From positions 16,678,001-16,742,000 of the forward strand of contig NC_088788.1 in assembly GCF_949628265.1 (NCBI RefSeq): DNA of 64,000 bases, written 5' to 3'. Origin of the DNA: Cloeon dipterum. Its lineage: Eukaryota > Arthropoda > Insecta > Ephemeroptera > Baetidae. Below the pieces are notes generated by a model. The model ran no database searches, was not told the origin of the DNA, and was given only the letters and a program-made list of their open reading frames with translations. Below are positions 9,905 through 33,031 of the stretch, in pieces. The position numbers and the translations under genes are program-made. The first letter of the stretch is position 1. Each line of letters begins with the position of its first letter.

Positions 9905-11577
9905 ATGGCGGGCAATGGGTCAAAGGTAGATAAAGAAATTCCAAACGTCATGGAATATGCAAGTCAACTAGACACGGATGGTAAGGTTTACTATGACTTT
10001 TAAATAATAAATATGATTTAAAAAATTTTTGCAGCCCAAAATTGGAGTCAGAATTTGGTGGAAAGATTCATAACTTCCTTAAGTAAACAGACCACAGCAA
10101 GAAAATCTAGTTTTTTAGTTGCGGAACAAATTCTCTCCCAATTGATTACTCCTGATCTAAAGGAATTCGACTTGAGCCTGATTGTCAACTTGTATCCTGA
10201 GAAGCCTCAATTTGCATTTGCAATTAAGGTAAAAAATTTATTTTTTTTAACTCATTTATTAACAAAAAAATCTCTTATAGGCACTGCAGTTGGTCTCGTC
10301 CAGAGCTAAAATATGCAAGCTCAAAATTAAAATACTAGAATCAGCAGGAGCAGTTAATTATATTATTCCGCAAATGAATGTTGAGATGAGAGCTGGAATT
10401 CGCGGGTTGGAGAGTTTGCGACATCTTGACGTCGATCGGTTTTATTTCACAATAGATGATTTGATGAAATTGTGCTGTGAAATTTCCTCGCTGAGGGACT
10501 TAACAGTAAAAATCGCTGCTCAACCCATCCAGACATTATTTGATGATCCCGATCTGTTAAAAAGCTTTAAAAATAGCTTCGGAAAATTGGCAGTGTTTCG
10601 TTTCTCATCTTTGAGCGAAGAAGATCACAGTAAAGAGTTTGAGGAGGAATTGACTTGCGTTTGCGTTCGACACCTGCCAAATCTGCAGTTTGTGGGCAAT
10701 TTCAGCCTTTTTGCTGATATGACAAGGCCTTGCATGGAACAGGAAGATCAGTCCAAACTTCAGCACTTGTCTTTACGTTTAAAGCGATCTGAAACTCAAG
10801 TTGTCGCATCTTTTGATAAGTTCCCTGATGTCCATACTTTATCCGTGAGCAAAGCATTTTTAAAACGTAGGTTTTAAAAATAACTCAAGCTTCTTGCAAT
10901 TTCAGCTCAAATTGGACTCAGATTACAATTACTGTCCAATCGAGGAATCAAAAATCAAAGCAATGCTTAAATTCTCACGGCTGAACACTTTGAAGTTAGT
11001 GAACATAACTTCGCCTCCATATTTTAAACAATTCTTGAAAATCTACGGAAAACAACTTAAAGAGCTGGATTTGTGTTATAAATATGAAATAGAGGCGATG
11101 GACTTGGAATTCAAATTGATTTGCGAATTTTGTCCAGCATTGGAAACAATCGACTTGCGTGGCATACGCGACATTACCGATAGTGACTGGTCGATGGCCT
11201 CGTTCTCTGAACTCAAGGAACTGAATCTGATTTTTACCAGGAAGTAAGTTTTTTATATTTCACATTCCATGGTGGGCTTAAAGGAATATTTTTGCAGCAC
11301 AACCCACTTAATTCAACTTTCTGACGTACTGTCTGCGCCAAATCTCAGAGAAGTGACGTTAGTTAATATACGCGTGTCCGAAGATGAGCTGAAGAAGACA
11401 CTAGAAATTGCTGAGGCTGGCGAAATTTCAAGCAAGATCGATTACTTGAAATTTTTTGTGCACGAGGAGGAGAATGTCGATGATAGCCTGGAAAACACGA
11501 TGAATAATAATTGGGATAAATTGGTGAACGTTTTGAAGAAAACTTGGCCTGACGCTAATATCAATATAATTTGGTAA
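9905..11577 (+). CDS. Tandem-array LRR protein L1 (483 aa)
   Basis: Five exons: 9905-9980, 10035-10228, 10281-10844, 10906-11243 and 11298-11577, with intron phases 1,0,0,2. The start ATG gives MAGNGSKVDKEIPNVMEYA. Residues about 26-90 form a helical N-terminal region with no F-box or BTB match that I can see. The rest carries leucine-rich segments such as LESLRHLDVDRFYFTIDDLM and SFSELKELNLIF, in the style of ribonuclease-inhibitor or F-box-type LRRs. There is no signal peptide or membrane segment, so it is probably intracellular. It shares exon lengths and phases with L2-L6 and is the first of the array. The function is unknown; substrate-receptor or recognition roles are only possibilities. 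The reading frame is intact. Confidence 0.85.
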
Positions 11578-12924
11578 TATAGTTCAGTAGTCCTCTTGAT
11601 ATAGTGTTAAAAAGCCACGACGATTTATTTTTAGTTTTTAAAATAGCTTACTTCTCTGTATTTATATATTTAAAAAACTGGATGAAACTATTCTCCTGTT
11701 GTAAATGGCCAAAATGATGTGACTGATAAAATTATTATTACACATTGAATCAGGAAAATAATTATATTATACATATACCATCAGCTGTTTCAATGCACAG
11801 AATAAATTTGGCCAAAAGCTACTGTAGCATTTGTTCCTTTCAGATGATGCATTGCAATATATATAACTTAATCAAACTGCAACACATACACAGTCTGACA
11901 TAGTCCACACAATAAAAATTAATTTTAACAGTAGTACAAAATAACCCAGACGTTTCCTTTAAAAATGATTTCCATTAAATCATTTTAGTTTTAAAAAATT
12001 TCAATTTATTGCAATTGATATTCAGAGCATGCATTGCTTGCTTGCATTTTGAAGAGAAAATAATCTCACAGTGTTTATGCCCTTAGACATTAACTTAAAC
12101 TTAATGACCTTAGATCTGGACCTGGGACATTAAATTTGGTGTCAGTTCGATTGGACTCGGCGAGGGGAATCCAAAGTACATGTTACTTTTTAGATTACAC
12201 CTCGGGGAAATTACATATTGAAGCCTCAAAGTTTTCCAAAAAATCCCACAAAACCCGTAAAAATGAATATTTTGTTGAAAAACTGTTATGTCGCAATCTC
12301 CAAGTAAAGACTGACTTCTGGTGTAAGTTTCGTTCAGTTTGCTTGACCTTATGCCAATTTTGTCCTCTATCCCGTGAAAATCATAAAACCAACTTCATAC
12401 CCAAATGATAAAAAATTGAGTGGAACAGTTCCTATTACAGAAAAAAGGGCGCAGACCCGTAAAAATAATTAAGTTAATGCTGCAAAATACAAAAAATAAA
12501 TGTTTGCATGTAACTTGCTTCACTCGCGTGTTAGTGTTTGGCACGCCGTATGACGTATGAATCGGTTCTCAAACGAAAAGTGCAAATAAGTATCGTATAT
12601 GTTCAACGAGTTAGACATGATACAATATTTATTAAAACTTGTTCATTTGGGCTAATGAAGAGAATGCTAGGCACTAGAGGATAGTTGAAGTAGACAACCT
12701 GCTCGGCTCGCGTGCTCATACGTTGCATACCAGTCATCGTTTTATCTGTAAGTGAACTATTGGGAAACGGAATATTCGGAATATTTAGTGACAAATATCA
12801 GGAATAACTTCTCAAAAAAGTCCCGGAATAGTGAACGACATTACAAGTAGCGACAAACGCACAGCACGATTCTACCCACTGCTGCACCAGGTTTTTTATA
12901 TCAGAAAAGTTCTAAGATTTGAGC
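11578..12924. other. Spacer between L1 and L2
   Basis: Contains the 3' region of L1 and the promoter side of L2. A short piece at about 12322-12390 resembles 17218-17285 in the third intron of L3 (see repeat entries). The open frame at 12136-12408 overlaps this repeat, lacks splice context and is not accepted as a gene. Confidence 0.5.
12322..12390 (+). repeat. Short dispersed repeat, copy 1 (matches 17218-17285)
   Basis: The stretch around ATGCCAATTTTGTCCTC, with preceding TGTAAGTTTCGTTCAGTTTG-like sequence, is shared with the third intron of L3 in the same orientation, with scattered differences. The two copies are 4.9 kb apart. It is too short to classify and may be a remnant of an older duplication or of a small element. 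Confidence 0.55.
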
Positions 12925-14956
12925 ATGGCGTGTAAGTACGTGAAATATTCTAAGATCATCAATCTAGACCTGGATGATTACATTAAAAATTTGAAAAAAG
13001 AGGGTGAGTGATTGACCCGGAAAATAAAATATTGAATTTTAATTTAATTTCAATCCACAGCATCTGACTCGAAGAAGGACGTTATAGACACATTCCTAAA
13101 AAAACTGGACGACGAGTGCAGAAATTTGTATTATTCCAATGCGAAAGTGGTACTATATGGTTTGATGCATCAAAAGATAAAAAAGAATAAAAAACTTGAT
13201 TTTAGCCCTTTTTTGGCTTTATCAAAACTGTACAATGAAGATCCCATCATCGTTTTAGAGGTAAAAAAGATTGAATGAATTCCTTTTTACTACAGATTTT
13301 CCTTGTATAGGTGCTCCAGAACTTTTCGTCTCAACTGTCAAAGCTTGTCGAGTTTATAATCAACTTTCCCGATGAAAATGCTGCTCCTCCTACAAAAATT
13401 GAGACTGCAATGCTAGAGGGAATCGGCAAAATGAAAAATCTGTGTACACTGAAAATCGAGAACTTCTATTTTGAGTACCAAGAGTTGTTTAAACTTTGCA
13501 AGCAGTTGTCCGCTTTGCGAGTTTTGGATGTAAAAATCAATCCCATAGAAAACTTTCCTGAAATAATTGCGCGATCATCATACAAGCCTTTCCAAAACTT
13601 GAAAACTTTCTACTTTTCTTCGGCATGGGTCAATTTCGAACGGAGTGGACCGTTTCAGGAAACGATGACCAACAATTTTGCCGCCTCCTTGCCAAAACTA
13701 GAGTATATTGGAGATCCCGAATCCTTCACCGACATGTCAACTGCTTGTTTCAAGTACAACCTGAACGAGCCATCCCATCTTCGCTGCATGTCCCTTAAAA
13801 TGAATATGGAAACACCTTTTGCGGATGACACTTTCGAATCCTTCCCTAATGTTAGAGATATCTGCGTGAGTAAAATTTAAAATATAATAAAAAAGCTAAT
13901 ATTTTTGTTTGGAACCAACAGCAAAAAATGGCGTCACCGTTTGATCACAAATCATTTTCTGCCACTTGCACTGTGATTTCAGATTCAACTCTGCTCACGC
14001 TAATAGTTGTAAATTATTATTACTTGACGAGTTCAAAACTAAAATCGGTTACAATATTTCAAGGCAAAATAAACCATCATCGTTTCTTCCGCAATTGACT
14101 TAACCGATTTTGGCTTCTGGCTCATCAAAAAGAAGTGATGTTTTTTTTTCAATCTGAAATCACTGTGAAAACTGTAAATGAAAGGTGGCGTCATATTTGC
14201 TTTGTACTTATACTTATATATTTTTTTGCCTCAATTTTCAGTTGAGATGGGACACAGTCGCCATTTCCCGACCAATGAACAAAGTCAACATGACCTCCCT
14301 GTTGAAAATTCACAAGTTGAATCGCGTGTCATTGACAAATCTGAGCTCCTCTGCTTATCTAGAGTTCTTTTTGACAAACTTTGGGAAGGAACTAAAACAA
14401 CTCGTGGTGTCGCCGTGTGCACTAAAAGATGTGAGATTCGCGATGATCGGCCATTGCTGCCCGAAACTTGATGAGCTCCAAATTCATTGTTTGTTCAAAC
14501 TGGTTGACGACACGGCTTGGTGTTTCCGCTCTTTTTCCAATCTAAAAGTTCTGGATTTGGAAATGATGGGCAGGTCTGCGTCAAGAGTTTTTTTTTATAA
14601 TTGTATCTTTTACTAGTTTTTGCAGCATCAATGACGAGCCAATTGGTCTACCTGATATTCTTTCCGCGCCAAAACTCGAGAAAGTGAGGCTGATTGACAT
14701 AACTGTGAGTGAGGATGAGTTTAATGAAGCAACTGAGTTGCTAGTGCATGGAGAGATTTTGTGCAAAATCCTGCACTTAAATCTGCGTGTCCAAGTGAAA
14801 GACAACTCAGGTAAAATTATAGATATCATGCTCTCTGCGGGCAAAAATTTTATCGATGCATTTCCTATTTTTCGACCTGGTGCTTTCATCCAAGTTGATC
14901 CGATTGACTTCATCGGTAGACAGGAATTTTACAATACAGTAAACGTGACTGTTTAA
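12925..14956 (+). CDS. Tandem-array LRR protein L2 (498 aa)
   Basis: Five exons: 12925-13003, 13061-13260, 13311-13865, 14242-14573 and 14626-14956, phases 1,0,0,2 as in its neighbours. The start gives MACKYVKYSKIINLDLDDYI. The second exon encodes the family's variable helical region (about residues 27-93, rich in Lys, Asp and Leu). Exons 3-5 encode LRR segments such as MKNLCTLKIENFYFEYQELF and FSNLKVLDLEMMG. The third intron (376 bases) is long for the family. The donor of exon 4 (AG|GTCTGC) is weaker than its neighbours but keeps the family phase and gives the expected SINDEPIGLPDILSAPKLEK join. The frame is open throughout. The protein is probably intracellular and its function is unknown. 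Confidence 0.84.
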
Positions 14957-15779
14957 AATTTTACTTTTATTTCAAATAAAAATCCATGCCTTTTAATTTA
15001 TTAAAATTTCGAGATGAGTAGCTAAATATTCTAAACCATTCAAACATTTAAAAAAATTAGTTTTCACCTTGTAGTAGCTAAAATAGCGTGTATATAGCTA
15101 TTTATTTTTAATTTAAGCGAGGAAAATGGCTCAAAATGAATATTTTTTTTTGCAAAACGATAACACCAATAAAGACTAGAAATAGAGAAAATGAATGTTT
15201 TTTTTTGCATTAGAACCCTTACCACATTTTTTAGAAAAGGTTACTCTTTAAGAGGATTGCTTCACAAATTTAAAAAATAATTAATGATCTATATTTATAA
15301 AAAGAGATTTATCCAGCCTGGAATTCAGGGAATTGCGGACTATTTTAGATATTAATAAATAGTTAGAAATACTCTTCCTGTGCTTTATTTAACTTTTATT
15401 CATCTCGGAATTCTCTAAATTGGATGAGAAAGTATCCATAGCGCAGAGAGTAATTCGGCTGTTTAATTGTATTGCAAATATTAAATCTTAATTAGAAAAA
15501 ATGATTTAAAAATTTGATATTTTTCTAAAGATAAATTTAAGCATTTGAGAAAAATCCCTACCTTGCTATTTAAACAAGAATATCTTCTCCCTGGCATTCG
15601 TTGAAAAATGGAATGTAATGCACGTGAAGAACCACAGAAATTTGTTACTAGAGTTCTCAAAAATTTTAAAAATTATGTTGCACATGCACTGACAAGGTTA
15701 GGAATTCTGTTCATTATTGAACGATCGAGAGTACTCTACAGCCTCGACTAACCTCGTTTCTCCTACAAAAAGATTAATA
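14957..15779. other. Spacer between L2 and L3
   Basis: AT-rich sequence with homopolymer runs. No exon, repeat or RNA gene was recognised. It should hold the polyadenylation region of L2 and the promoter of L3. Confidence 0.5.
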
Positions 15780-18027
15780 ATGTCGTACGTACTTATGAAA
15801 TCTAATATCAAACCTGTTGAATATGAATTCATGGGTAACGGCGCCGCGGCATTGAGGGCCGACCTGGATGTCATGCGCAAGAGTGAGTAAATAATATTTA
15901 ATCTCAATTTCAAATTTACATGGTTTTTAATTAATCTCAGATGGCGCATCGGCACAGAAGATTTTGGACGATTGCTTGATACTTTTGTCTGGAACATGTG
16001 GAAAGTACAGTTCTGATGACATAGAAATGGTCCTTGAACATTTCATCACCAAGGAGACGACGAAAATTGATTTCGACCGAATCATTTCTTCGTTTCCCGC
16101 CGAGTCTAAAGTCTTAAATAGGGTAATGGGAATTTTAACACAGTTGATTTTTATTTTTAAAACATATGATTTACTTCTGACAGCAAGTGAACATGAATTA
16201 TGCAAATTTAAGACTTTTGAGTCACTCTTATAACCGTCTAAAACCTTCTAAATAACCCTTGTACACTTACATTAAAACCTTAAATTCGCTCGTTTACTTT
16301 TTTGGTATATTTTTTTTCTCCAGATACTTCTTAACCGTGAGTTTCGTCAAATTTAACAATAACTCTGAATTCTTTGCATAGAAAATGTCGTTTAAATATT
16401 GATTCTAAGCTCTTATAATGACTTATTCGCGTCTATAGTTGTATTCAATGTAAAATCAGCGGATATATTATTTCAATTTATGAATTCACAGGGGATGCGG
16501 CTGCTCTCGCCACACTCTACCAGCATTTGCGAGTTCACCATGAAGGCAGCACAAGCAGGAAAAAGTGCAAAAATTGACGGATCCTTATTGAACCAAATCT
16601 GCAAGATGGAAAATCTAAGAAAGCTGGATATCAGCGCAGTCCAATTGACCATACCCGAACTAATGAAGCTCTGCGGACAGCTGGTCTATTTAAAGGACAT
16701 AACTGTAAAAATCAAACCGTGGCCACAACCATATCCGTTCAAGGATCCGACCTTTATTAAGGCCTTCAAGAATAACTTCTCTCACTTGAAGACTTTCAGC
16801 TTCACCACGATACAGAGTGACGAGGAGCTCACTTTCGAGCAAGAACTGACCCGCTTCTGCGTCATGAATTTGCCAAATCTGGAGTACTTGGAAGATTTCG
16901 GATATCTTGACACTAGTAAATTCGGCTGCAAGCACCAATTGAGAAAGCCAAATAGCGTTATGCACTTGTCCTTACCGTTGAACGAGGAAAGAGCTATCCG
17001 AATTCTCTCCCGGCTCCAAAGCTTCAAGCATCTCACTGTTTGTTGAACTTTTTCTTATATTTAAATAATTATCTAAAAATCAACTTCGAAACTCGAAGGA
17101 ACACGTCGAATTTTTGCGATTTTTTAATTTGCAAATATTGAAAACGTCAAATTGTTAAATTATTATTTTGTCAAAACTTTTGAACGCAAATATCTAATAG
17201 CAAAAAATAATTTTGAAGTGTAAATTTGAGTTAGTTTTGACCTCATGCCAATTTTGTCCTCCGATCCGTGACGTTTCGTCCAGTGCTGTCTGATTGTAAA
17301 TAATTCAAATTGAATTCCAGATTAGACTGGATAGTGGCTTCCGTTTACAACCAATCAAGGAATCAAAAATAGACAATCTGCTCAAGCTGAAAAAGTTAAA
17401 ATGTCTGCAGTTGATGCACTTGAAATCCGCCGCCTTCTTGGAGTTACTCCTGATGACCTATGGGAAATCATTGGAGCAACTGATCATTCAATTCGTTCCT
17501 GACTCAGTGATGGAAATCAGATTCGTGTTACTCCACTCGTTGTGTCCGAAGCTAAAATCACTCGTCCTGCACGACATGCCCAAATTGGTGCACGATGCCG
17601 CTTGGTCCCTCGCCTTTTTCTCGCATCTCAGAGAGCTGGATTTGAAGCAAGATTTCAGGTAAATTTTAGTTTACAGCTTTTATTTTACACATATATATTA
17701 ATTCCTATTTTTTAATCTGGTTCTTCCAGCAATGGCAGTGAACCTGTTCGCCTGTCTGATATTTTGCTAGCACCTCAACTTGTGAAAGTGAAGCTGGTGG
17801 GACTTGCAATCACCTACGACCAGCTACAAACAACGACAAGATTGGTTGAGCGGCGGCAAATCTTGACCAAAATCACCCATTTCACTTTGGAAGCTCACGT
17901 AAAAGAAAAAAACGGAAAATACGTTCAACAGGTGGTGGTGAGATTTGAGCACCAGAATCTTGAAAGAGCGTTGCTCCAGTTTCGGCCAAGTGCTATCGTT
18001 TCCATAGATGTCGCTTATTTCGCGTGA
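15780..18027 (+). CDS. Tandem-array LRR protein L3 (488 aa)
   Basis: Five exons: 15780-15882, 15941-16122, 16492-17037, 17321-17658 and 17730-18027, phases 1,0,0,2. Two in-frame ATGs are possible: 15780 (MSYVLMKSNIKPVEYEF) and a downstream one at 15831 (MGNGAAALRADLDVM). The second gives a first exon nearer the length in L1. The second intron is unusually long for the family (369 bases). The third intron uses an odd donor, ACT|GTTTGT, but its phase and the joined sequence (HLT then IRLDSGFRLQPIKES) match the other genes. LRR segments include MENLRKLDISAVQLTIPELM and FFSHLRELDLKQDF. A copy of the last 20 or so coding bases plus 3' flank reappears at 22669, marking the edge of a tandem duplication. 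Confidence 0.83.
17218..17285 (+). repeat. Short dispersed repeat, copy 2 (matches 12322-12390)
   Basis: Lies in the third intron of L3. It shares the ATGCCAATTTTGTCCTC core and flanking bases with the copy upstream of L2. Confidence 0.55.
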
Positions 18028-19056
18028 AAATATCTTATTTTCAAAAAGTGAAATATCCCCTTAAATATTGAAGACAGAAAAGGTTTAAGACAGAATGTCT
18101 CGTCGCAGAAAGTGCAATTCAACGCTTGTTTGAGATATTTGGATTCGCTTTAAATAGTGAAATCATTTTAAGGGAAAGGAAGTAAATTTCGGGTCCTGTG
18201 ATTCGCCAAAAGCCACCGGGATGTTGAATTAATTGCGTCCTTAGACGGTCCTAAATTATATAAAATATATATTTTGTAAAATTGTGCTGTCTTTATGCTT
18301 TGTCAAGACTTATTAAGAAATTTTTGTCTGCTGTAAAAATAACTTGACTGCCTGTTGGATCAGCACTTATCCCAAAACCTGGCAAGTTCGCCATTTGATA
18401 TAAATGGAAAAAAAACATTGTAAATTTAATGTACAATTTAAAGAAATTTTAGTAATATCGTCAAAATAAAAACCTTAATTTTATACATTTAACCTGTTTC
18501 CATAATTCCAAAATCTTTCTTCCTTACTTTCGAATACTTTGGCGAATATAAGGGAAAAGAAATCATGAAAAAATTTGTTCTGTTTCATTTATCAAAAAAT
18601 TATGATTTTATTGAACACTTTTTTGTGAGAAACAAAACAAAATTAATTATATTATGCACCATGACGAGTAATAGGAGCCTAGTTCAATGTATTTGATAAA
18701 AGTAGAGTTTTCGCCATCTACCTGATTGATTGTGAAATATTTTTATGTCCACTGTTTGAAGTTGAGAATGAAAAGCATTATAAAACTGTAAAAAGTAGGG
18801 ACGGAGCTAGGTCACTGACTATGCAATGTTGCCGTTCTCGTTATAGCAAACTAAGAGAGAACTATTTCATTTTTCATCCTCAAGGAAATTCTTCGACTTA
18901 TGATCGATGCTTCTGAAATGTGAAGAATGGCAAAAATTAAAAGCACGTCAACATTCAGGGGATTCTCGTCAAGTTTTCAAAAATTTTGGTTTTTCCTACT
19001 CTAACAAGCCAACAGTCCACCCAGCAACGTGCCCGTAAGATTTAGCAAGTCGCAAA
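18028..19056. other. Spacer between L3 and L4 (part of duplication copy A)
   Basis: No gene is seen. The sequence is repeated with small insertions and deletions at 22691-23888, upstream of L5, which shows that the duplication includes the L4 promoter region. Confidence 0.6.
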
Positions 19057-21511
19057 ATGCCTAAAAGACTGAAAAATCAAAGCTTTGATGACTTATTATC
19101 GTCAAACCAACACTTAGAAGCAATAGAGTTAGCCAAAAAATTGAAAAAAGCAGGTGAGCAATTATTAATATTCTTTTAACAGCAGTGAAAGTGAAACAAT
19201 ATTCTCGATTACAGGGAAGGCTGGATTTAACTGTTGTCTGGAACGTATATTGTCCAGTACATACAAAAATTTAAACACTTCGCAGATGAGAGAAATAATT
19301 CGAATACTGATTAACTCGAAGACAAAAGAAATAAATTTTACTGTCGTCATGGAAGCACTACACCTTAAAGACCCTGAAGATCATCAGTTTGATTTAATGG
19401 TTATCGTCTCGATTTATTATTGAATGCGATCTAAAATTTGTTCTTTGCAACTAGGTTCTGCAGAATATCTCAAGCAGAGCAACAAGTATTTCTAAATTCT
19501 CTTACTGCATGGTCGGAGAGAAAAATTTATTTCCTCACACGAAAATTAAAAAAGCGACGAAAGAATTTCGGATGGAAATCTGCAAAATGAAGTCACTCAA
19601 AGTGTTTGAAGTTAACATGCTATTTTTTACGCTCGCCGACCTGCTGGAGATTTGCAGGAAGTTGAAAAAATTAAAGATTTTGAATATCTTCCTCGCATGC
19701 GACGAGAAATACGAGTCAGCGAACCGGGAAGAATTAAAAAAATCACTGCAAAAATGTAAAGAGTTTCGCTTTTCTTCAGTGTGGTGCGAGGACCACAAGA
19801 ATGAACGGCTTCAGAGAGATCTGACTTGTTACTGTGTTCAACACGTGCCGAAATTGAAAGGATTGGGCAACTTCGACTGCTTCACCGACATGACCAATGG
19901 AATCATAAGCTACAAAGGGATATACTCTAGACTCGAACGAATTGACATCTCCGTGAATTCCAATTCTAAAAATGTATCTTTCATCAAATTTCCTGAGATC
20001 ACACATTTAAGAGTAAGTCTTAAAGTAGCAACGGAATTTCATTTTTGACAGTGCTTATCGATTTCTGAGGTGTAATAATTTGTCGCTCCTCCTGGGTGTC
20101 ACTGTGTAAACGATTTTGACGGTTCCACCGCATTTCGGCAAGTCGGGTCGAATTATCAACATAGTTTTTTGGCTGCCTGACCTAATTTTACTCTCAACAA
20201 TCGAGTGACACTGTCAATATAGTCCAATTTCATTACTGCTTTAATTTTTCACACAAATTGGACAATGTCGATGACGGCTTAATAGTTTTTGACATCTAAA
20301 ACAAATTTTAATAGCTTTTATGATTTTTTCCCAATGAAGGGATGTTTTTTAGATTTATCAAGAGTAAACCATCTCATACCTTTGAACTGTATTTCAGCTC
20401 GCCAATTTTGATTTGTTAACGCTTCTCGATTGGCTAGAGATGAAAGTGTTGAAAAATATGAAGTCACTTGAGCTGATCCAACCGACACACCCTGCACATT
20501 GGGAGCAACTCATGATGCACTTTGGGAAAAATCTGAATGCGCTTAATATTGAACTGCCCGCTAGCAACATTGGTGACTTCAGGCTCGCGCTCATTAACGC
20601 CGAGTGTCCTAATCTGACAGTGTTGAAGTTACTTCAAATTGACCATTTAAGCCAGGACGCAACTTGGTCGTTGCGCGCGTTTAACCAACTAGTAGAGCTG
20701 CAATTACAAGTGAAGTAAGAAGAAGGAACGGATTCTGGCTCATTTGGGGTAAAATCAACAAAATTGCCATGAGAATCTCTTATAGTTTGTTTGACACAAG
20801 TTTGAATTTACGCAGATTTACGAGACTCAATTTGGAATTTTCAAACGCAATGTTTTTGTTGCCCAATATTAAAATTACGACGTTCTAGCCCTCAAAAGTT
20901 GTCTTAAGACATGACTCAACTACTGTGAAAATTTCAGATTGGTTTTTGTCCTATTAAAAACTAAAAACTGAGGATATGGTCACAACTAAATCTCGGGTTC
21001 TTACCATCTGGACCATTAAGCTCATTTCGACTTAAAAAAAATTGAAGGGAACGATTCTCACGCTACAGTCTATAGCGACTACCATGCATGACAATTTTAT
21101 TAGTTATTTTGCTCAAAATAAGTTAAAATTCTTTCATTGTTCATGTGCTCATAATAATGAACAAAATTTAGCTCATTCCATTGATTGTAATATTTTTCTA
21201 GGATTTCCTGCACTAAACCATCCGATTTTCGGCGGTTAATCGCGGATATCTTATCAGTGCCAACGCTTGAAAAGGTGACGTTGGAGAATATTCCTGTCAT
21301 AGGAAATTTGGTAGGAATTGCAGCTAAGATCACAACATATTCAGCTCTTTCGCTCAAAATCGTCGAGTTCAATGTGAGTTTAAGAGAGCTTAATCGCGGT
21401 GCTGAGAAAAGGGAAGAAATTTCCAATGAAGATAAATGCCAAGAGATACAAGATGCTTTAAAATTGGCACTAAGAAATAACGGTGCCTCCTTCAGGGTTA
21501 GCCTCGTGTAA
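19057..21511 (+). CDS. Tandem-array LRR protein L4 (488 aa), duplicate of L5
   Basis: Five exons: 19057-19153, 19215-19399, 19455-20012, 20398-20714 and 21202-21511, phases 1,0,0,2. The start gives MPKRLKNQSFDDLLSSNQHL. Exon 3 encodes LRR-like segments such as MKSLKVFEVNMLFFTLADLL, and exon 4 encodes MKSLELIQPTHPAHWEQLMM. The fifth exon begins AA|G ATT TCC TGC, giving KISCTKPSDFRRLIADIL, and ends at a TAA. The third intron (385 bases) is twice as long as in L5 because of an extra segment. L4 and L5 are identical over the last 84 residues but differ in the first two exons, so they are old duplicates with recent exchange at the 3' end. All frames are open. Confidence 0.84.
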
Positions 21512-22523
21512 TTATGCTTTGTGACTTTTGATCCAAAGCAAAACGAGTCCTATCAATCTTTTATACCATCTGATGACCCACGCAAATCCTTTATTGTATA
21601 CATTTAATCTCAGAGTTAGATTTATTTATTTTTCATAATGTCTACACTCTTAACTGAAAAATTGATTTTACGTCAATCTAAATTTGAGTGGTGTAAAGAG
21701 CGTCGAAATAAATTTTATGACTCTTAACTTATAATTTTGACTGTATATTTTTCTCCAAAACCCTAAAAAAGCTTTTAGTTTTTTTTTAAATTGTTTCATT
21801 CTTGTACGTTCCCAAGCTATAAAGAAAAAGTTGAGAACTCGATTTTCTCTCCCTAGCTGTGAAGATGCGTGAAATATGGAAGGTTATGCAACCTGCTCGA
21901 TTTCTGAGTCAAGAACGTTGCATATTGATTAGCCTAATCAGTGCTATAGTTTTATTTCAACCATCACCATTCCCTAAAATATGAATTGCTGGTTAAATAG
22001 GGCGAAGTTTTAGAGAAAAATTCAGCATTGCCTGATCCCAAGGCTTAAAGTTTGTTGCTTTCCGAGATTCTGGCTCCTTTTTTGATCAAAGGATTAAGTA
22101 ATAACTGGATACAATAATGTCATTTTGTAAGATTAAAGATGATAGCTTAGATATTATTTTCTTCCTGTTTTGATTTCAGTATTCCTTGACCTTGTTGAAT
22201 GCCTGGCATTCCAATCAATGTTCTTGATGGTGTTAAGGCAACGGGAAAAGCCCGCATTCATTTATCTATGTTATTCGATCTGCAATTTTGTTGGTATTTT
22301 AGCAGCGTAAAGTTCTGACAAATTTTCTTGACGCTCGGGGAAAAATTCTTAGAGAGTTTCAAATACGTTGGAGGGCAGTAAACGTATAAAATTATTGTTC
22401 ATAGAATATTGGACGGAGAAATCCGAGATCTTTCCTATACATTTCTCATCTTTGAACCCCGAAAGCAATTTCCCAGTCCTCTCTGAAATCCTAGCAGATT
22501 ATACTAAAAAAGACCCCACAGAA
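21512..22523. other. Spacer after L4 (part of duplication copy A)
   Basis: No gene is seen. It is nearly the same as 26147-27293 downstream of L5, except that the Gypsy-type insertion present there is absent here. Confidence 0.6.
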
Positions 22524-22690
22524 TGGCATACAAATATTTGAGCGATGATCCTGATTTTCACCTTTACGACAAAGTAATGGATGAAACAACTGATTTGTCA
22601 GGATCTTTGAGAATTGGCCGTAACCAATATGCTTTTCGAATTTTCTATGATTTATGAATTTACGAAATATAGATGTAGCTTATTTCGCGC
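22524..22690 (+). pseudogene. Duplication-junction remnant: L6 exon 1 copy fused to the 3' end of L3
   Basis: Bases 22524-22620 reproduce the first exon of L6 (ATGGCATACAAATATTTGAG onward) with an open frame and a GTAACC donor. The following intron copy stops at about 22655. From about 22669 the sequence instead matches the last coding bases and 3' flank of L3 (TAGCTTATTTCGCG). There is no downstream L6 exon, so this is a non-functional fragment left by unequal crossing-over between the first intron of an L6-like gene and the last exon of an L3-like gene. It could still supply a promoter and an orphan first exon that splices into L5. Confidence 0.85.
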
Positions 22691-23888
22691 AAAAATATCC
22701 TTTTATCAAAAAGTCCATACATATTGAAGATAGAAAACGTCTAAGCCAATAATTTTAGTCAGAATGTCTCGTCTCGTAGAAAGTGCAATTTATTGGGTGA
22801 ATTCCACGCTTGTTTCAGATAATTTGATGGATACACTTTAACCAGTGAAATTATTTTAAGGCAAATTTCGGGTCCTGTGATGCGCCAAAAGCCACCGCAA
22901 TGTTGAATTAATTGCGTCCTTAGGCGGTCCAAAATAATATAAAAATATTTTGTAAAATTCTGCTTTCTTTATGCTCTACCAAGACTTATGATTTATTTTC
23001 TATTTAATTCTATAATTTTGTGTATTGACATGCAAGAATAAACAAGAATAATTCATAAATATTTGACTACCATGAAAATAGCTTGGCTGCCTGTTGGGTC
23101 AGCATCAGCACTCACCTCAAAACCGGACAGTTTCGCCATTTTATTTGAATGGTAAAACATTGTAAATTTAATGTACAATAGAAAGAAATTTTAGTGATGT
23201 CGTCAAAATAAAAAAAACTGATTATTATAGATTTAAGCTGTTTTCATAACCCCAAAATGATTCTTTCTTACCCTCGGATATTGTGGCGAATATAAAATAA
23301 AAGAAAATCCTGAAAAATATTTGGTCTGTATCAGTTATCAAAAATTTAAGATTTTATTGAACCCTTTTTTATTGTGAGAAGCATGCTTAGTAAACAAAAT
23401 TAAATATATTATGCAACGTAACGAATAATAGGAGTCTTGCTCAATGTATTTGATAAAAAGTAGAGTTTTCGCCATCTACTTGAGGGGTTGTGAAATATTT
23501 GTATGTCCACTGTTTAAAGTTGAGAATGAAAAGCTTTATAAAATTGTGAAAAGAAGGGACGGATCTAGGTCACTGACCATACATCGATGCCGAATAGCCT
23601 GGCTCCAAGCGGGCGATATCATAAACGAGGCTCCTATTCTCGTTATAGTACACTGAGAGCGGGAGAGAGAGAGAGAGAGAGAGATTTTTCATTTTTCATC
23701 CTCAAGGAAATTCTTCGACATATCATCCTTGATCGATGTTTCTGAAATGTGAAGAATGACAAAAACTAAAAGCACGTCAACATTCAGGGGATTCTCGTCA
23801 AGTTGTCAAATTTTTTTGTTCCCATTCTAACGCGCCAGCAACCGAGAGACAGCCAGCATCGTGCCCGTAAGTTTTATCAAGTCGCAAA
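22691..23888. other. Spacer before L5 (part of duplication copy B)
   Basis: Repeats the L3-L4 spacer. The open frame at 23444-23656 is not kept in copy A, where small insertions and deletions break it, so it is not accepted as a gene. A GA dinucleotide run lies at about 23657-23686. Confidence 0.6.
23000..23050 (+). repeat. Short dispersed repeat, copy 1 (matches 44335-44384)
   Basis: The TGACATGCAAGAATAAACAA core and the preceding TTAATTCT/TAATTTT bases recur in the second intron of trypsin T5, 21 kb away. The first duplication copy lacks it, so it looks like an insertion or a small mobile remnant. Confidence 0.6.
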
Positions 23889-26146
23889 ATGGACAACATA
23901 TATACAAAACTGGGCAGCCAAACGGACGTTCAAAGCTTGAAAAGTTTTTCCAATGACTTTGTCATCCGATACTTACAAGCAATGGAGTCAGCCAGGAAAT
24001 TGAAAAAAGAAGGTGAGCAATTAATATTCTTTTAACAGCTGTGAAAATAAAACAATTTTCTCATTCGCAGGGAGACATGATTTTCACACTTGTCTGGATT
24101 CTATATTGTCCGTTCCAGACAAACATTTAAACACTTTAACGAAGAGAGATATAATTCAAATTCTACTTGACTCGGAGACAGAAGAAATAAACTTCAGTCG
24201 CATCATGGAAGCAGTATACCATGGAAACCCTTACCACGCGTTTGATTTGATAGTGCGTCTCGTTTCATTATTTAATGTGATCTAATATTTGTTTTATGCA
24301 AGTAGGTTCTGAGGAATATCTCGAGCATAGCAACAAGTATTTCTAAATTCACTTACTGCACAGGCGGAGAGGAAAATAATTCATTTCGTCACGAGCAAAT
24401 TAAAAAAGTGACCGAAGAATTTCTGATGGAAATCTGCAAAATGAAGTCGCTCGGAGTGTTCGAAGTTAACATATTATGTTTTACGCTCACCAACCTGGTG
24501 GAGATTTGCAGGAACTTGCGAAATTTGAAAATTTTGAATATCTTCCTCGCATGCGACGAGAAATACGAGTCAGCGAACCGGGAAGAATTAAAAAAATCAC
24601 TGCGAAAATGTAAAGAGTTTCGCTTTTCTTCAGTGTGGTGCGAGGACCACAAGAATGAAGAGCTTCAGAGAGATCTGACTTGTTACTGTGTTCAACACGT
24701 GCCGAAATTGAAAGAAATTGGCAACTACGACTGCTTCACCGACATGACCAATGGAATCATAAACTACGAATGGTTGATGTTCTCTAGACTCAAACGGATT
24801 GACATTTCCGTGAATTCCAATTCTGAAACTATTTCTTTAGACGCATTTCCTGAGATCACACATTTAAGAGTAAGTGTTAAAGTTGCAATGGAATTTCGTT
24901 TTTTGACAGTGCTAATCGATTTCTGAGGAGAGATTAATAATGTGATGACGGCTTTTGACTTCTAAAACAAATTATTAGCTTTTATGAATTTTCCCAATGA
25001 AGGGATGTTTTTTTTAGATATATCAAGAGTAAATCACCTCATACCTTTGAACTATATTTTAGCTCGCCAATTTTGAAATGATCTTGCTTCTCAATTGGCT
25101 TAAGACGAAAACATTGACAAATATGAAGTCACTTGAGCTGATCCACCCGCTACACCCTGCACATTGGGAGCAACTCATGATGTACTTTGGGAAAAATCTG
25201 AATGCGCTTAATATTGAACTGCCCGCTAGCAATATAGGTGACGTCAGGCTCGCGCACATTGACGCCGAGTGTCCTAATCTGAAAGTGTTGAAGTTACTTC
25301 AAATTGACCATTTAAGCCAGGACGCAACTTGGTCGTTGCGCAAATTTAAACAACTAGTAGAGCTGCAAATACAAGTGAAGTAAGAAGAAGGCACGGATTC
25401 TAGCTCATTTGGGGCAAAATCAACAAAATTGCCATGAGAACCTCTTATAGTTTGTTTGACAAAGTTTACGCAGATTTACGAGACTTATTTTTAAATTTTT
25501 TAACATAAGACACGTATTAGCCCTTAAAAAAGTTGTCTTAAGACATGAGTCAAAATTCCTGTGAAAATTTCAGATTGGTTTTTGTCCTATTAAAAACTAA
25601 AAACTAAGGATATGGTCACAACTAAATCTCGGGTTCTTACCGTCTGATCCATTAAGCTCTTTTCGACTTAAAAAAATTGAAGGGAACGATTCTCACGCTA
25701 CAGTCTATAGCGACTACCATGCATGACAATTTTATTAGTTATTTTGCTCAAAATAAGTTAAAATTCTTTCATTGTTCATGTCCTCATAATAATGAACAAA
25801 ATTGAGCTTATTCCATTGATTGTAATATTTTTCTAGGATTTCCTGCACTAAACCATCCGATTTTCGGCGGTTAATCGCGGATATCTTATCAGTGCCAACG
25901 CTTGAAAAGGTGACGTTGGAGAATATTCCTGTCATAGGAAATTTGGTAGGAATTGCAGCTAAGATCACAACATATTCAGCTCTTTCGCTCAAAATCGTCG
26001 AGTTCAATGTGAGTTTAAGAGAGCTTAATCGCGGTGCTGAGAAAAGGGAAGAAATTTCCAATGAAGATAAATGCCAAGAGATACAAGATGCTTTAAAATT
26101 GGCACTAAGAAATAACGGTGCCTCCTTCAGGGTTAGCCTCGTGTAA
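23889..26146 (+). CDS. Tandem-array LRR protein L5 (498 aa), duplicate of L4
   Basis: Five exons: 23889-24012, 24071-24252, 24306-24869, 25063-25379 and 25837-26146, phases 1,0,0,2. The start gives MDNIYTKLGSQTDVQSLKSF, longer than in L4 and differing in sequence. Exon 3 includes MKSLGVFEVNILCFTLTNLV. A long part of exon 3 (around ILNIFLACDEKYESANREEL) and all of exon 5 match L4 almost or wholly base for base, while exons 1-2 are clearly diverged. The frame is intact. As in the rest of the array there is no signal peptide or membrane segment, and the function is unknown. Confidence 0.84.
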
Positions 26147-27293
26147 TTATGCTTTGTGACTTTTGATCCAAAGCAAAACGAGTCCTATCAATCTTTTATA
26201 CCATCTGATGACCCACGCAAATCCTTTATTGTATACATTTAATCTCAGAGTTAGATTTATTTATTTTTCATAATGTCTACACTCTTAACTGAAAAATTGA
26301 TTTTACGTCAATCTAAATTTGAGTGGTGTAAAGAGCGTCGAAATAAATTTTATGACTCTTAACTTATAAATCTGATTGTATATTTTTTCTCCAAAACCCT
26401 AAAAAAGCTTTCAGTTTTTTATTTTAATAAATTGTTTTGTCACTGGCTCGAAATATAAATTTTACCACATAGCAAAGCAGGTCACCGTTCAACCATACCA
26501 TTAGCTTGTGGGTGTTACGCATTAGTGTGAACAAGTTTAATATCTGCTTTTGCAGTAAAGGTTTGAAAAGTCTGCGAGACGAACTGGCGTCCTTGCTCAC
26601 TGACGATTTTAGTTATAGTTACATTCTTGTAGCTGTGAAGATGCATGAAATATGGAAGGTTATGCAACCTGCTCGATTTCTGAGTCAAGAACGTTGCATA
26701 TTGATTAGCCTAATCAGTTCTATAGTTTTATTTCGACCATCACCATTCCCTAAAATATGAATTGCTGGTTAAATAGGGCGAAGTTTTAGAGAAAAATTCA
26801 GCATTGCCTGATCCCAAGGCTTAAAGTTTGTTGCTTTCTGAGATTCTGGCTCATTTTTTGATCAAGGAATTAAGTAGTAACTGGATACAATAATGTCATT
26901 TTGTTAGATTAAAGATGATAGCTTAGATATTATTTTTCCTATTTTGATTTCAGTATTCCTTGACCTTGTTGAATGCCTAGCATTCCAATCAATGTTCTTG
27001 GTGTTAAGGCAACGGGAAAAGCCCGCATTCATTTATCTATGTTATTCGATCTGCAATTTTGTTGGTATTTTAGCAGCGTAAAGTTCTGACAAATTTTCTT
27101 GACGCTCGGGGAAAAAATTCTTAGAGAGTTTCAAATACGTTGGAGGGCAGTAAACGTAAAAAATTATTGTTCATAGAATATTGGACGGAGAAATCCGAGA
27201 TCTTTCCTATACATTTCTCATCCTTGAACCCCGAAAGCAATTTCCCAGTCCTCTCTGAAAGCTTAGCAGATTAGACTAAAAAGACCCCACAGA
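26147..27293. other. Spacer between L5 and L6
   Basis: Matches the spacer after L4 apart from the Gypsy-type fragment at 26439-26630. The plus-strand open frame at 26506-26760 runs across that fragment and is not a gene. Confidence 0.6.
26439..26630 (-). mobile_element. Decayed Ty3/Gypsy-type integrase fragment
   Basis: Read on the minus strand, this stretch encodes the integrase-core signature around SEQGRQFVSQTF and HPQANGMVER, typical of Gypsy-type retrotransposons. The aromatic residue before HPQ is replaced by a stop, a second stop follows VER, and the usual catalytic Asp of the SDxG motif reads Glu. No other part of the element is present. The corresponding position in duplication copy A (after about 21780) lacks it, so it arrived in copy B after the duplication or was lost from A. 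Confidence 0.82.
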
Positions 27294-29680
27294 ATGGCAT
27301 ACAAATATTTGAGCGACGATCCTGATTTGCACCTTTATGACGAAGTAGTGGATGAAATAGCTGATTTGTCAGGATCTTTGAAAATTGGCCGTAAGCAATT
27401 TGCTTTTTTAATATTCCATGATTATACACGTAATTTATTTTTTTTGCAGCAGCAGCAGCCACGGCTCAGGATATATTTGACAAGTTCATAATCAATTTGG
27501 GTTTTAGAGAGAGTGTAAAGTGGTCTGAAGTGAGGCCCCTTACTCAACGTTTGATTGATCAGGGCGTCCACACAATCCATTTGAACCGAATCACAGAATT
27601 ATTTCCTGATGAGCCTGTGATTGCTTTAGAGGTAAGAAGCGGCATTCTTCTTTTAATCAATGCATAATTATTTATCCTCGTGCGCTTAGATGCTGCAGAT
27701 GATTTCAGCTCAAGCAACCGCCATTTGCGAGTTAACCATCGGTGGAAATATGTGTAGGCGGTATAGGAACATGCATTTAGAGATAAAAACTGAAATCTGC
27801 AAGATGAAGAGCTTGAAGAAACTGGAAATCGATAAATTCCACTTCTACGTTCAGGACTTGATAGAGTTTTGTCCTCAACTGCCCGCGCTTCAGTTTATCA
27901 AAGTAAAGATCGCCCCTACTGTCCCAGTATTTGAAGACAGGGATCAAGCCAAGGAGTTCGTAGCGAGTTTGAAACACTTGAAGGTCTTCTTTTTTAACTC
28001 GATGTGGTGCAGCGATGATACGAACTTCAAATTCCAAGCAGAGCTGACACGATTCTGTATCCTGCGGATGCCACGCCTGAGATTCGTAGGAGAACCGATA
28101 TTATCTGTTGACATGACGACTGCCATAGAGAATCAGAGAGAAATGTCAAGCCTGCAACACATTTCAATTATTATGAATGATTCTCAGCCTCAAATTGCGA
28201 CTTTCTGGAAGTTTCCGTATGTCAGGGACCTGGTCGTAAGCGCTTTTTTATCTTATTTTGTGGTATTAATGGAAAATTTTTGAAATAGCTCTTTCACAAT
28301 TTTCAAGTTCCAGGCTTTAATAAATTTAGTCAATCGGCCATTTTTTCTGAGCTTACGATCCACGAATCTTGCAATTTTAAACCGTTTCGGAAACATGATT
28401 CTTAAATCTCAATTTAAAATTGAAATTTGAATTATTTATTTGAAATAAAAAATGATTTAAAATTTCACAGCCCAATACCAATGAAAATAATTAGAGAAAT
28501 AATGATTATAATAACCTAACCATGTTTAAAATATATTGAATAACTCAATTTTAGAAACATGTAATGATTTGGTGAAAATAATTATTTTAATTCATTTCCA
28601 GATCAAATGGGACAAACACAAAGAGTACCCTCCAATGCAGGATTACAATTTGGACTCGATGCTCCAATTCCGTCATTTGAGAGCCTTGCAGTTGAATCAC
28701 CTTGCGTCTCTTTCCTATATGGAGTATCTGCTTTCACACTACAGAGAAAGACTGGAGGTGCTGAGTGTTGTCTGTGTTAAGAACACAGTGAGAGATATCA
28801 GATTCACGATGATTTACTCTCTTTGCCCAAACCTAGAGTTGCTCATCTTGAAAAACATTCCGAATCCAGTCAACGATGCAGCGTGGATCATGAGCTCTTT
28901 CAATAGACTCAAAAAGCTGTATTTGAAAGTGAATCGCAGGTGAGAAATTATTATTTTTTTTATTATTACCCAAGTCATTTGCTCGCATTGTTGAGGGAAC
29001 GCTTTTGTGAGAATCCGCGCGATGTTTTGGGGCTGAATTGCGCCTACGTTTGATTATATTGGATTGCAATGAATCCATTCAGATTTGGGAGAGTTGCGTG
29101 TTCAACTCGCTTCTTGCTAGTCTGCATCTTTCCAGCAAACTTGAATGAATTACACGGGACAAATGTCTAGAGTTTCAATAAAAGACCCTGGTGCGCGGGC
29201 AGAAACACGAACTGATCCTTTTTGGACTGGGCTTCCTCTGGCCCGTGAGCATATGTAATTGGGGCATGATTTTTTCACGAGTTGTTTGATACTAGAGGGG
29301 TCTCAAAAGCGATCAACCGATAACAATCCTTATATTTATTGTTTTGTTCCATATTTTCCAGCGCTAACGACGAGCCAGTTCGACTTTCTGACTTCTTGTT
29401 GGGGCCAAACCTTACAGAGGTGACTCTGGATGGCATCACCGTCTCTGCCGAACAACTGAAAGCCACAAACAAACTGATTCTTGACACAGATATGTTGAGC
29501 CATATCATCGAATTCAGACTGTTTGTCAATCCGCGTAATGTTACTGAGAGCTACGAGGAAGATTTGAAAAAAGAAGGAATGATACTTGAAAAAACTTTGA
29601 CTAGTTTACGGCCTAGTGCGATCGTCGTCGTCTTTATTATCTTGCCTATGGTTGGTAAGCCTATGCAAACCGTGCTTTGA
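27294..29680 (+). CDS. Tandem-array LRR protein L6 (493 aa)
   Basis: Five exons: 27294-27390, 27450-27631, 27690-28235, 28602-28939 and 29362-29680, phases 1,0,0,2. The start gives MAYKYLSDDPDLHLYDEVVD. The acceptor of exon 2 is a run of CAG triplets, so splicing could drop one to three Ala residues. LRR segments include MKSLKKLEIDKFHFYVQDLI, LRALQLNHLASLSYMEYLLS and FNRLKKLYLKVN. The fourth intron (422 bases) contains a dispersed repeat at 29112-29262. Its first exon was copied to 22524 by the tandem duplication. It is the last member of the array; the next genes are trypsins on the other strand. Confidence 0.85.
29112..29262 (+). repeat. Dispersed repeat, copy 1 (in fourth intron of L6)
   Basis: Shares CTTGCTAG, GGGACAAATGTCT and TTTCAATAAAA blocks in the same order and spacing as 35997-36135. 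The flanks are GC-richer than the intron. It could be a SINE or a non-autonomous element; two copies do not settle its ends. Confidence 0.65.
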
Positions 29681-30484: not shown

Positions 30485-32993
30485 TTAAATACCAGTAGTA
30501 GACCTGATCCAATCAAGGTGTTGTGCGACGTCAGTGTAGACGCCAGGGAAGAAAGGGTTGGCGCAGCCATTGCCCCACGAGGCAACGCCAACCACGGCGC
30601 CACCACCAGCCAAGAAGAGGGGGCCGCCAGAGTCACCCTGGCACGAATCGATGCCGCCCTCGAGAACGCCGGCACAGATCTGGTCAGAGGGCACGCCGCC
30701 GAAATCGACATAGGTAGCATTGCACTGGTCGTAGTCAAAGATGGGCACGTCCACCTTCAAAAGGACATCAGAGGCGGATCCTCCTTCCTGAATGATAAAA
30801 AATATTCTCAAAATAAATAGTTAAATTATTTTTTCACTTTGTTTTGGATATTTAATTTGAATAATTTCGTAATTTTTTACACTAAAAATTTATCATTTCA
30901 TATATATAAATGAGTATTAAATTCTAATTTCTTTTTGGCCTGTCCACTTTATGGTATTTTAGGTGAAAGATGTCTAAAATATATGTGGACAAAACTTTTT
31001 TACCAGTATTGAAAATTATGCTAATAAAGCCTATGTAAAATCTCTCTGGCCTTTGTAATGGTCGTAATGGTTTAAAAAAATTATAAAAAAATCGTTTACA
31101 TAGCTAAAATGTTTTACTTACGGTTGTGTCGCCCCAGCCAGACGTTGTTGTCAATTCTCCTGTGGCCGGGGTGACTGAGGATAGTGCGGCGGCGGACGTA
31201 TTGGCGTTGAAGACAATAGGAACGGTCGTCTGCATATTAAAAATCAGTAAATTGTGAATTGCTGAAAACGGCAATCTGACATGGAGGGTAGTGCTTTGCG
31301 CGGGTACAAATTTTCAACCCAAACCCGCACCGAACCCGCTTATTTCGTACCGCATCAAAACCGCACCCATGTCTTTTTTCAAAATTTGAACTCGCACCCG
31401 CACCAAATCGCACTACGCCAACCCGCACCCGCAATCCGCCATATTGGATTTGCAAAATCTGGACCCGCACCCGCGGGTTTTGCGGGTCAAACCGTTTTTG
31501 GTGCTAGCAGGGGGGTCTGTTTTTGGTGCTAGCAGGAGGGTCTGTTTTTGGTGCTAGCAGGAGGGTCTGTTTTTGGTGCTAGCAGGAGCAGGGGGGTCGT
31601 TTTTTGGTGCTAGCAGCTCGAGGGCACCGTGGGTTCGTTCCGCTCTATGGATTTTTTGCAACATTTGTATTAAATTTTGAGATGTTTGTACATGGACCAC
31701 GAGTCCGAAATTTGTAATCTGACTTGTTTTGGAGCTAAGCATTATTAGATATATTAGAGATTATTAAATTTGTTAAAATGCGAAGATTTGTTAGTTATTA
31801 GAATCCGCATGATATTAGATATTTATATTCTCATGGGTCGTTAATCGTTATTAAAAAAATGATTTTTAAATACGTTTATATTTAAGAAGGCACTTCAAGT
31901 TAAATATAACTTTTAATTAGTGAAACTATTTTATTTTAAACATTATAATAACAAAATACATTAAAATCATCAAGAAATAAATAAAATTTTATCTTATTAA
32001 ATACTAGTAAAATAAAATCACTCATAATTTTTTTTAATTTTTAGTCATTAAAAATAAAATTAAAAAAGGCTTTTGTATAACTATATTGTTAACAACACAG
32101 TAAATTATTAACTTGTTAGTTAATTAAAAATTGTTTAATGCTAGGGTTCATTCTAAATTATAAATCACACATCATGATTAATATAACTATTGATCTGTCA
32201 CTTCAAAACGAGATTATGTTTTCCAAAATATCATCTTGATCAGATAAAAACTTGGCCCTATTTCTAAATATAACACGATGGGAATTCTCTTCAGGTATTG
32301 GATGTCATAGAAGAACGAACCCAGTGTGCCATTGTGAGAAACCATCTAAATTGGCTTGGAAACCGTTTAAAACCATCTATAAAAATATTCAACTTTTTTT
32401 GGAACCAAAAATTTTGGAACTCTAATCCCTAGAACTAAAAGAAAATCATTTACCTGCCACAAGGCGATATCTCCAGCACGAGTGAAGTAATTAAAATTTG
32501 GGCTTATTGTAATGTTGGCGACCTCGTGCACGGCTCCAGGGTTGTCCTTTTCAAGGGTACCAACAATGATGCGAACTTCACTCGGGCTTAGATTGATTCT
32601 ACCAAAATTACGGAAAATTTATTTAATAACAATTCTTTCAATGATTTTATTTTATAATTATAAAAATTTAGAGTGATATAGTGATAAAAAAAAATTACGA
32701 GCAGTGTGCGGCGGTGAGGATCCATCTGTCTGAGATGATGCTTCCGCCACAGAAAGCGAAGCCGATGTCGTACTGTAGGGAAACCTGCCATGGGATTTCT
32801 CCAAGTGCAGCCGGGCTGCCGCCAACGATCTTTTCACCCGCTCTGAAATCCTGCGGGCCATATAGTTTTCGGTTTCGGGCTCCGCCTGAATGATGACAGA
32901 AAATGACACGTATCGATCACAGTCCTCAAAACAATCAGATCTACCTAAGGCGAAAGAAACGCAGGCTAGAATGATAACTAACTTGGCGAGCAT
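30485..32993 (-). CDS. Trypsin-like serine protease T1 (263 aa)
   Basis: Five exons: 32993-32945, 32885-32699, 32598-32454, 31229-31122 and 30787-30485. The signal peptide is [18 protein letters not shown] short propeptide ends FRAGEK before [16 protein letters not shown], consistent with activation by cleavage after Lys. The triad is visible as TAAHC (His57), GDIAL (Asp102) and [10 protein letters not shown] (Ser195). Asp189 six residues before Ser195 and the SWGNGC/PGVY segment mark trypsin specificity (cut after Lys or Arg). It should be a secreted, probably digestive enzyme. Unlike T3-T6 it has an additional phase-0 intron after DIALWQ (31230-32453, 1.2 kb) that is full of CCCGCA-rich and 25-base tandem repeats. 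Confidence 0.93.
31310..31482. repeat. CCCGCA-rich degenerate tract in T1 intron
   Basis: Repeated ACCCGCACC-like units on the plus strand, ending in a short inverted pair CCCGCGGG and TTTGCGGGT. Such tracts occur at the ends of some hAT-type DNA transposons, but no transposase or full terminal repeats are seen here. Confidence 0.6.
31494..31620. repeat. 25-base tandem repeat (about 5 units) in T1 intron
   Basis: Units of GTTTTTGGTGCTAGCAGG plus AGGGTCT start at 31494, 31519, 31544, 31569 and 31599. The first three periods are exactly 25 bases and the last is 30 because of a small GGAGCA insertion. Confidence 0.85.
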
Positions 32994-33023
32994 CTTGAGT
33001 GCAGATCTCTAAAGCTCGACCGA

Positions 33024-33031
33024 CTTTTATA
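33024..33031 (-). promoter_or_regulatory. TATA box of trypsin T1
   Basis: TATAAAAG on the minus strand, 31 bases upstream of the T1 start codon. Its closeness implies a very short 5' untranslated region. A GATA-type site (AGATAA on the plus strand) lies further up at 33388. Confidence 0.7.

Follow-up and report, generated by a model that had tools for sequence, protein, structure and literature searches.

A tandem array of six leucine-rich repeat genes in Cloeon dipterum with a variable N-terminal region

Introduction

The locus studied here raises the question of what kind of protein is encoded by a compact row of related genes that share a leucine-rich repeat (LRR) body and differ strongly in their first two exons. 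It lies in a 64,000-nucleotide stretch of DNA from Cloeon dipterum, which is called the window below. The initial annotation had described six LRR genes with one rigid plan, had taken them to be rapidly changing and to encode probably cytosolic recognition-type proteins, and had named the array as the best candidate in the window for an undescribed system, with an immune or ubiquitin-ligase adaptor role as speculation. To our knowledge, the animal group of the host is not known for large cytosolic receptor families.

Results

The array occupies positions 9905-29680 of the plus strand and consists of six neighbouring LRR genes, g1 to g6, with one common plan (Table 1). The gene models were spliced by hand and then checked by script, with the sequence alone as their basis. 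The coding sequence of each gene is split into five exons, the intron phases being 1,0,0,2, and all six models stay open between the ATG and the terminal stop codon, giving proteins of 483-498 residues in which exon 2 codes for about 61-67. All 24 introns are bounded by GT-AG, and the donor reads GTAAG or GTGAG in 16 of them; a few donors are weak (GTCTGC in g2 intron 4, GTTTGT in g3 intron 3, GTTATC in g4 intron 2). In our judgement, one plan together with homologous sequence in six models is not a matter of chance. The extent, exon number, phases and protein lengths given in the initial annotation were exact.

Table 1. Positions of the array genes, the duplicated units and a neighbouring gene (positions in the window)
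Feature	Position	Strand	Exons or parts	Basis
g1, 483 aa	9905..11577	+	exons 9905-9980, 10035-10228, 10281-10844, 10906-11243, 11298-11577	spliced model
g2, 498 aa	12925..14956	+	exons 12925-13003, 13061-13260, 13311-13865, 14242-14573, 14626-14956	spliced model
g3, 488 aa	15780..18027	+	exons 15780-15882, 15941-16122, 16492-17037, 17321-17658, 17730-18027	spliced model
g4, 488 aa	19057..21511	+	exons 19057-19153, 19215-19399, 19455-20012, 20398-20714, 21202-21511	spliced model
g5, 498 aa, g4 duplicate	23889..26146	+	exons 23889-24012, 24071-24252, 24306-24869, 25063-25379, 25837-26146	spliced model
g6, 493 aa	27294..29680	+	exons 27294-27390, 27450-27631, 27690-28235, 28602-28939, 29362-29680	spliced model
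Stranded g6 exon 1 copy	22523..22619	+		tblastn (E 1.3e-11), blastn self-comparison, sequences
Duplicated unit, copy 1	18004..22652	+	g3 tail, g4, g6 exon 1	blastn blocks, identity profile
Duplicated unit, copy 2	22669-27423	+		blastn blocks, identity profile
EGFR-like receptor tyrosine kinase	51855-57127	-	kinase 51855-52610; furin-like and receptor L 55327-55896; receptor L 56702-57127	Pfam

The LRR nature of the proteins, which the initial annotation had read from the letters, holds at the level of the predicted structure. An AlphaFold2 model of exon 3, made from a six-row input with g6 first, has repeated strand-helix units (pLDDT 84.9, pTM 0.81). Foldseek compared it with the PDB and returned 922 matches at E<=10, the best at E 2.9e-3 and none at E<=0.001; the best 50 of the 922 are nearly all LRR proteins by name, with unrelated functions, and the matches listed include tropomodulin, TIR1, internalins, COI1, SKP2, NLRP9, TLR13 and ZYG11B. 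LxxLxL-like strands run along all six proteins, their number being a count without a chance control. The two marks of the LRR superfamily, LxxLxL strands and a strand/helix solenoid, are found when the exon 3 model, the Foldseek matches and the strand motifs are taken together. An LRR fold is supported by this modelling, and the family is not placed among the known ones.

Profile searches point the same way. Matches of g1-g6 to Pfam families all stay below the curated cut-offs, and the best of them concern one member each (LRR_Zer-1 at 8e-5 in g3, LRR_At5g56370 at 8.1e-5 in g1, LRR_14 at 1.7e-4 in g2). A profile of the six proteins matched 24 sequences of solved structures at E<=10, with TIR1 on top (E 0.0025) and LRR proteins making up most of the rest; these weak matches include the LRRs of FBXL2, SKP2 and FBXL5 as well as LGR4 and internalin K. 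In NCBIfam and PADLOC the matches were weak and concerned unrelated families (best E 0.072 and 0.011, respectively). In agreement with what had been noted earlier, F-box, BTB, NACHT, NB-ARC, TIR and death-fold families are absent from the nine Pfam families reported for the six members at E up to 10, in a search where the filters of HMMER discard most matches with E above about 0.1.

The paralogues are old, with the exception of one pair. Pairwise protein identity is 21-32% across g1-g6 and 78% for g4 and g5, and a tree separates these two from the other four with support of 100/100, the other two inner branches having 81/85 and 89/89 (the tree was rooted at its midpoint for drawing only). In the other 14 pairs silent sites are saturated (dN 0.68-0.95; dS 1.7 or more, or undefined). 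The full alignment of the six proteins contains 33 invariant columns, of which 31 fall in exons 3-5. By exon, the gapless columns that are invariant number 0/57 in exon 2, 12/170 in exon 3, 11/102 in exon 4 and 7/90 in exon 5, and the mean pairwise identity of exons 2, 3, 4 and 5, computed over five lineages after g5 was dropped as a near copy of g4, is 19, 30, 31 and 27%. Among exons 2-5, conservation is lowest in exon 2, which bears out the strong difference among the first two exons that had been pointed out for this array.

A blastn self-comparison shows that 18004-22652 and 22669-27423 are two copies of one unit, with blocks that are 75-95% identical. The unit begins in the last codons of g3, takes in g4 or g5, and ends with exon 1 of g6 and the start of its intron 1. 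At 22523-22619 lies a seventh fragment, a copy of g6 exon 1 that has 26 of the 32 residues in common with it, followed by 33 nt of g6 intron 1, and from about 22669 a copy of the g3 3' end begins. Such an arrangement is the expected product of an unequal crossover between the tail of g3 and intron 1 of g6, which would have made the pair g4 and g5, with the stranded exon marking the junction. The recent duplication, together with the identical fifth exon described below, and the seventh fragment go beyond the initial annotation.

Exon 5 is 100% identical in the two genes over 310 nt, which points to a recent gene conversion. Along the unit, identity is uneven: six of the eight 200-nt bins of 21000-22600 are at 94% or more, with the other two at 93.5 and 86.0%, and the 15 bins of 18000-21000 range from 72.6 to 94.9%. 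This unevenness suggests that local homogenisation followed the duplication.

Rates of change can be compared in one young full gene pair, g4/g5. In the 5' part, identity is 87.9% for the 500 nt upstream, 62.9% for exon 1, 86.2% for intron 1, 73.1% for exon 2 and 83.0% for intron 2. It is 89.6% for exon 3, 73.8% for intron 3 (poorly aligned owing to a length difference of 192 nt), 90.9% for exon 4 and 91.6% for intron 4, and in the downstream DNA 96.3%. Apart from exon 5, the exons of the two genes differ by about 9-37%. Exons 1 and 2 together differ at 86 of 276 codon-aligned positions versus 17 of 111 in introns 1 and 2 (Fisher P 0.0014) and 51 of 422 in the 500 nt upstream (P 9e-10), the P values of all seven rate tests being uncorrected and the sites not fully independent. 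Exons 3 and 4 differ at 88 of 873 positions and are not distinct from introns 1 and 2 (P 0.10). In this pair, therefore, exons 1-2 have diverged faster than their own introns, and with an open frame: there are no stops versus about 7.9 expected under random change (P 0.0004), and indels are multiples of three in 5/5 cases in exons and 3/11 in introns.

The nature of this acceleration is less clear-cut. Over all exons, dN/dS is 0.133/0.119, and in exons 1-2 it is 0.402/0.377, with a bootstrap P(dN>dS) of 0.59. The rapid change claimed by the initial annotation is supported for the N-terminal exons of the one young pair, in which dN/dS is near 1 and not clearly above it. A locally different history or mutation rate for exons 1-2 is possible, because their synonymous sites are raised as well (16/55 versus 17/111 in introns, P 0.04). 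When residues are classed by g5, 9 of 29 hydrophobic and 41 of 64 other residues of exons 1-2 have changed (P 0.004), and when classed by g4, 12 of 32 and 38 of 61 (P 0.03). Such a contrast would be expected if the core is retained while the surface changes, as judged from residue type, and it is lost (P 0.20) if the core is defined by either residue being hydrophobic. A second comparison, between g6 exon 1 and its stranded copy, gave a mixed result: the exon differs at 8 of 97 positions, the intron stretch at 6 of 33 and the upstream DNA at 16 of 663, so that the exon is faster than the upstream DNA (P 0.007) and not faster than the intron stretch (P 0.19).

A conversion tract was considered as the cause of the divergence of g4/g5 exons 1-2. 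It is disfavoured because intron 1, which separates the two exons, and intron 2 stay 83-86% identical and because the window holds no close donor, the protein identity of g4/g5 exons 1 and 2 to the other four genes being 9-40%. A donor from outside the window is possible.

The model of exon 2 (60 aa) is weak (pLDDT 63.7, pTM 0.31), with helices at 5-15, 24-34 and 45-50; Foldseek returned four matches to it, the best at E 7.5, and the N-terminal 108-121 residues, compared as a profile with the PDB, had no match below E 0.14. The profile and Foldseek searches proposed for the N-terminus and the LRR part have thus led to no confident known family. Judged by hydropathy as a proxy, all six proteins appear to lack a signal peptide (the top 11-residue hydropathy within the first 40 residues is 0.18-0.85), and g1-g6 have no strongly hydrophobic stretch except near the g6 C-terminus (top 19-residue value 2.01), which agrees with the probably cytosolic location put forward before.

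Docking motifs for ubiquitin ligases were sought in residues 1-125. The CRL2 receptors with a VHL box (ZYG11, ZER1, LRR-1 and PRAME) carry a BC box, described as (S,T,P)LXXX(C,S,A)XXX-hydrophobic, followed by a Cul2 box, in the accessible text of PMC4878042. A strict BC box occurs in one of the six (g5; shuffles 0.10-0.19 per protein), a relaxed one in two (g4 and g5, at unaligned places; shuffles 0.34-0.59 per protein) and a strict Cul2 box in none (shuffles 0.10-0.36). VHL-box motifs are not above chance in the N-termini of g1-g6.

The genes beside the array that were tested are ordinary. To its right, on the minus strand, trypsin-like protease exons extend over 30488-47913 in several related blocks that are 60-84% identical, and Pfam Trypsin was found in 3/3 open reading frames tested (30488-30820, 37571-37897 and 45824-46150; E 2e-23 to 1.2e-24). 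The remainder of this cluster was assigned by eye. Further on lies an EGFR-like receptor tyrosine kinase (Table 1). The shortness of the introns and this set of genes seem typical of an arthropod. An open reading frame of 381 codons at 34233-35375 has, by eye, C2H2-like zinc-finger spacing near its start and no Pfam match at E<=0.001. At the left end, the minus-strand open reading frames 172-444 and 762-1172, which we take to resemble a GTPBP-like protein, have no Pfam match. An undescribed system, as proposed earlier, is not supported by these surroundings, the gene family itself being what was found.

Relatives were also sought in contig collections of viruses and prokaryotes, which say little about animals: the six-row alignment gave 16 pattern matches in viral contigs and g3 alone gave 104 in genome contigs, with no confirmed relative in either. 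The accessible parts of the literature on arthropod, insect and mayfly LRRs, ZYG11/ZER1, ligase adaptors and PRAME contain no description of the family that we found, which is not to claim that it is absent from print.

Discussion

The observations that are new here are the exons 1-2 of g4/g5 outpacing their introns and a preserved unequal-crossover junction. The reading that we favour, tentatively and at a probability of about 0.35, is that the six genes code for soluble recognition proteins acting inside the cell, with a variable helical N-terminal cap set on an LRR scaffold. The scaffold would be the irregular LRR solenoid of exons 3-5, and the cap the N-terminal 95 or so residues of exons 1-2, predicted to form two or three short helices. 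The cap may serve for contact with a partner whose own changes drive it, be it a factor from a pathogen or an opponent in genetic conflict, and the LRR part would bear the more constant contacts, with duplication and local homogenisation supplying variants. A part of the protein that touches such a partner would be expected to evolve quickly, as exons 1-2 do in g4/g5. That the genes form an undescribed family of recognition proteins of the cell interior whose specificity is set by the hypervariable helical cap and not by the LRR, two small exons outpacing their own introns and the LRR body being kept or homogenised, is improbable as a separate claim; this layout would be the reverse of that of PRAME and cullin adaptors.

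Among the alternatives, a receptor of a ubiquitin ligase whose docking box has degenerated is somewhat unlikely. A short helical N-terminus followed by LRRs is the layout of FBXL, ZYG11/ZER1 and PRAME, and the weak profile matches to TIR1, FBXL2, SKP2 and FBXL5, amid other LRR proteins, the matches to LRR_Zer-1 and LRR_At5g56370 below the cut-off in one member each, and the presence of TIR1, COI1, SKP2 and ZYG11B among the Foldseek matches listed for exon 3 would fit it. The structural matches, however, follow the common LRR fold, since they place tropomodulin, internalin, NLRP and TLR on a level with these proteins. One would expect good conservation in a docking part, yet here that part is the least conserved. 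A ligase role is made less likely because docking motifs are at chance (BC box strict in 1/6 and relaxed in 2/6, within the shuffling range; strict Cul2 box in 0/6), because an F-box match (0/6) and the other domains searched for are lacking, and because exon 2 is without invariant columns, but a docking helix can be divergent. The adaptor role offered earlier as speculation is, as far as it would run through the N-terminal helices, weakened by the low conservation of that part and by BC-box and Cul2-box motifs at chance level.

A family of the germline or gametes, comparable to mammalian PRAME and enlarged through reproductive or intragenomic conflict and not by pathogens, is unlikely. The array resembles PRAME, as portrayed in the accessible parts of PMC3037382 and PMC1262708, in protein size and LRR architecture, in its tandem birth-and-death and in the speed of its change, but these texts report PRAME in eutherian mammals only (PMC3037382) and place its selected sites on one face of an LRR model (PMC1262708), whereas the fast part of the array is the N-terminus. 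It is just as doubtful that the family is partly redundant and under weak constraint, with little depending on exons 1-2 and conversion having homogenised the 3' part of g4/g5. The dN/dS near 1 in this pair would suit such a history, as would the identical exon 5 and the 6/8 bins of 21000-22600 at >=94% as signs of local homogenisation. Relaxation, however, lifts exons to the intron rate and not above it; the frame has no stops and 5/5 exon indels are in frame; and invariant LRR positions persist despite saturated silent sites in the other 14 pairs. Should exons 1-2 prove to be under diversifying selection, the six genes would make up a compact set of candidate recognition factors of the cell interior, with variation confined to about 95 exchangeable, testable residues. 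If not, it would be an example of tandem LRR-gene birth and partial homogenisation with the crossover junction preserved.

Comparison with known systems

Receptors of the NLR, TIR or death-domain kind are not recognised in the array, with no NACHT or NB-ARC, TIR or death-fold in the six proteins (Pfam, E up to 10). The mosquito LRIM/APL1-type proteins are arthropod LRR proteins tied to immunity; they are secreted and have a signal peptide and a coiled coil, whereas the array proteins have no apparent signal peptide.

The F-box/LRR proteins (FBXL, SKP2, TIR1) share with the array irregular LRRs and, by eye, strands like 'CPxLxxLxL', the array proteins again being without an apparent signal peptide; the array differs in having no F-box in any of its six members and an N-terminus that is its least conserved part. 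The ZYG11/ZER1 receptors of CRL2 are similar in having N-terminal helices followed by LRRs, and the weak LRR_Zer-1 match in g3 and the ZYG11B match in Foldseek go in the same direction, but the VHL-box motifs of the array are not above chance. ZYG11B is described, in the accessible text of PMC13201589, with a C-terminal ARM domain after the LRR, whereas no ARM family appears in the Pfam report for the array.

PRAME proteins are, according to the accessible texts, LRR proteins of 470-528 aa from fast-evolving gene clusters (PMC3037382, PMC1262708), with one clade under positive selection (PMC3037382), and to this extent they are like the array. The same texts give the human PRAME cluster genes three coding exons (PMC1262708) and PRAME a range restricted to eutherians (PMC3037382), and an N-terminal VHL box is reported (PMC4878042); set against this published plan, the genes of the array have five coding exons, and their VHL-box motifs do not exceed chance. 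The LRR genes of Tetrahymena with 90-bp exons, as presented in the accessible part of PMC6564038, are also fast-evolving and likewise keep to a rigid arrangement of exons, the phase of their introns being fixed. There the 90-bp exon is the unit and a gene has from 1 to 51 exons, whereas each gene of the array is built from five unlike exons in a fixed order.
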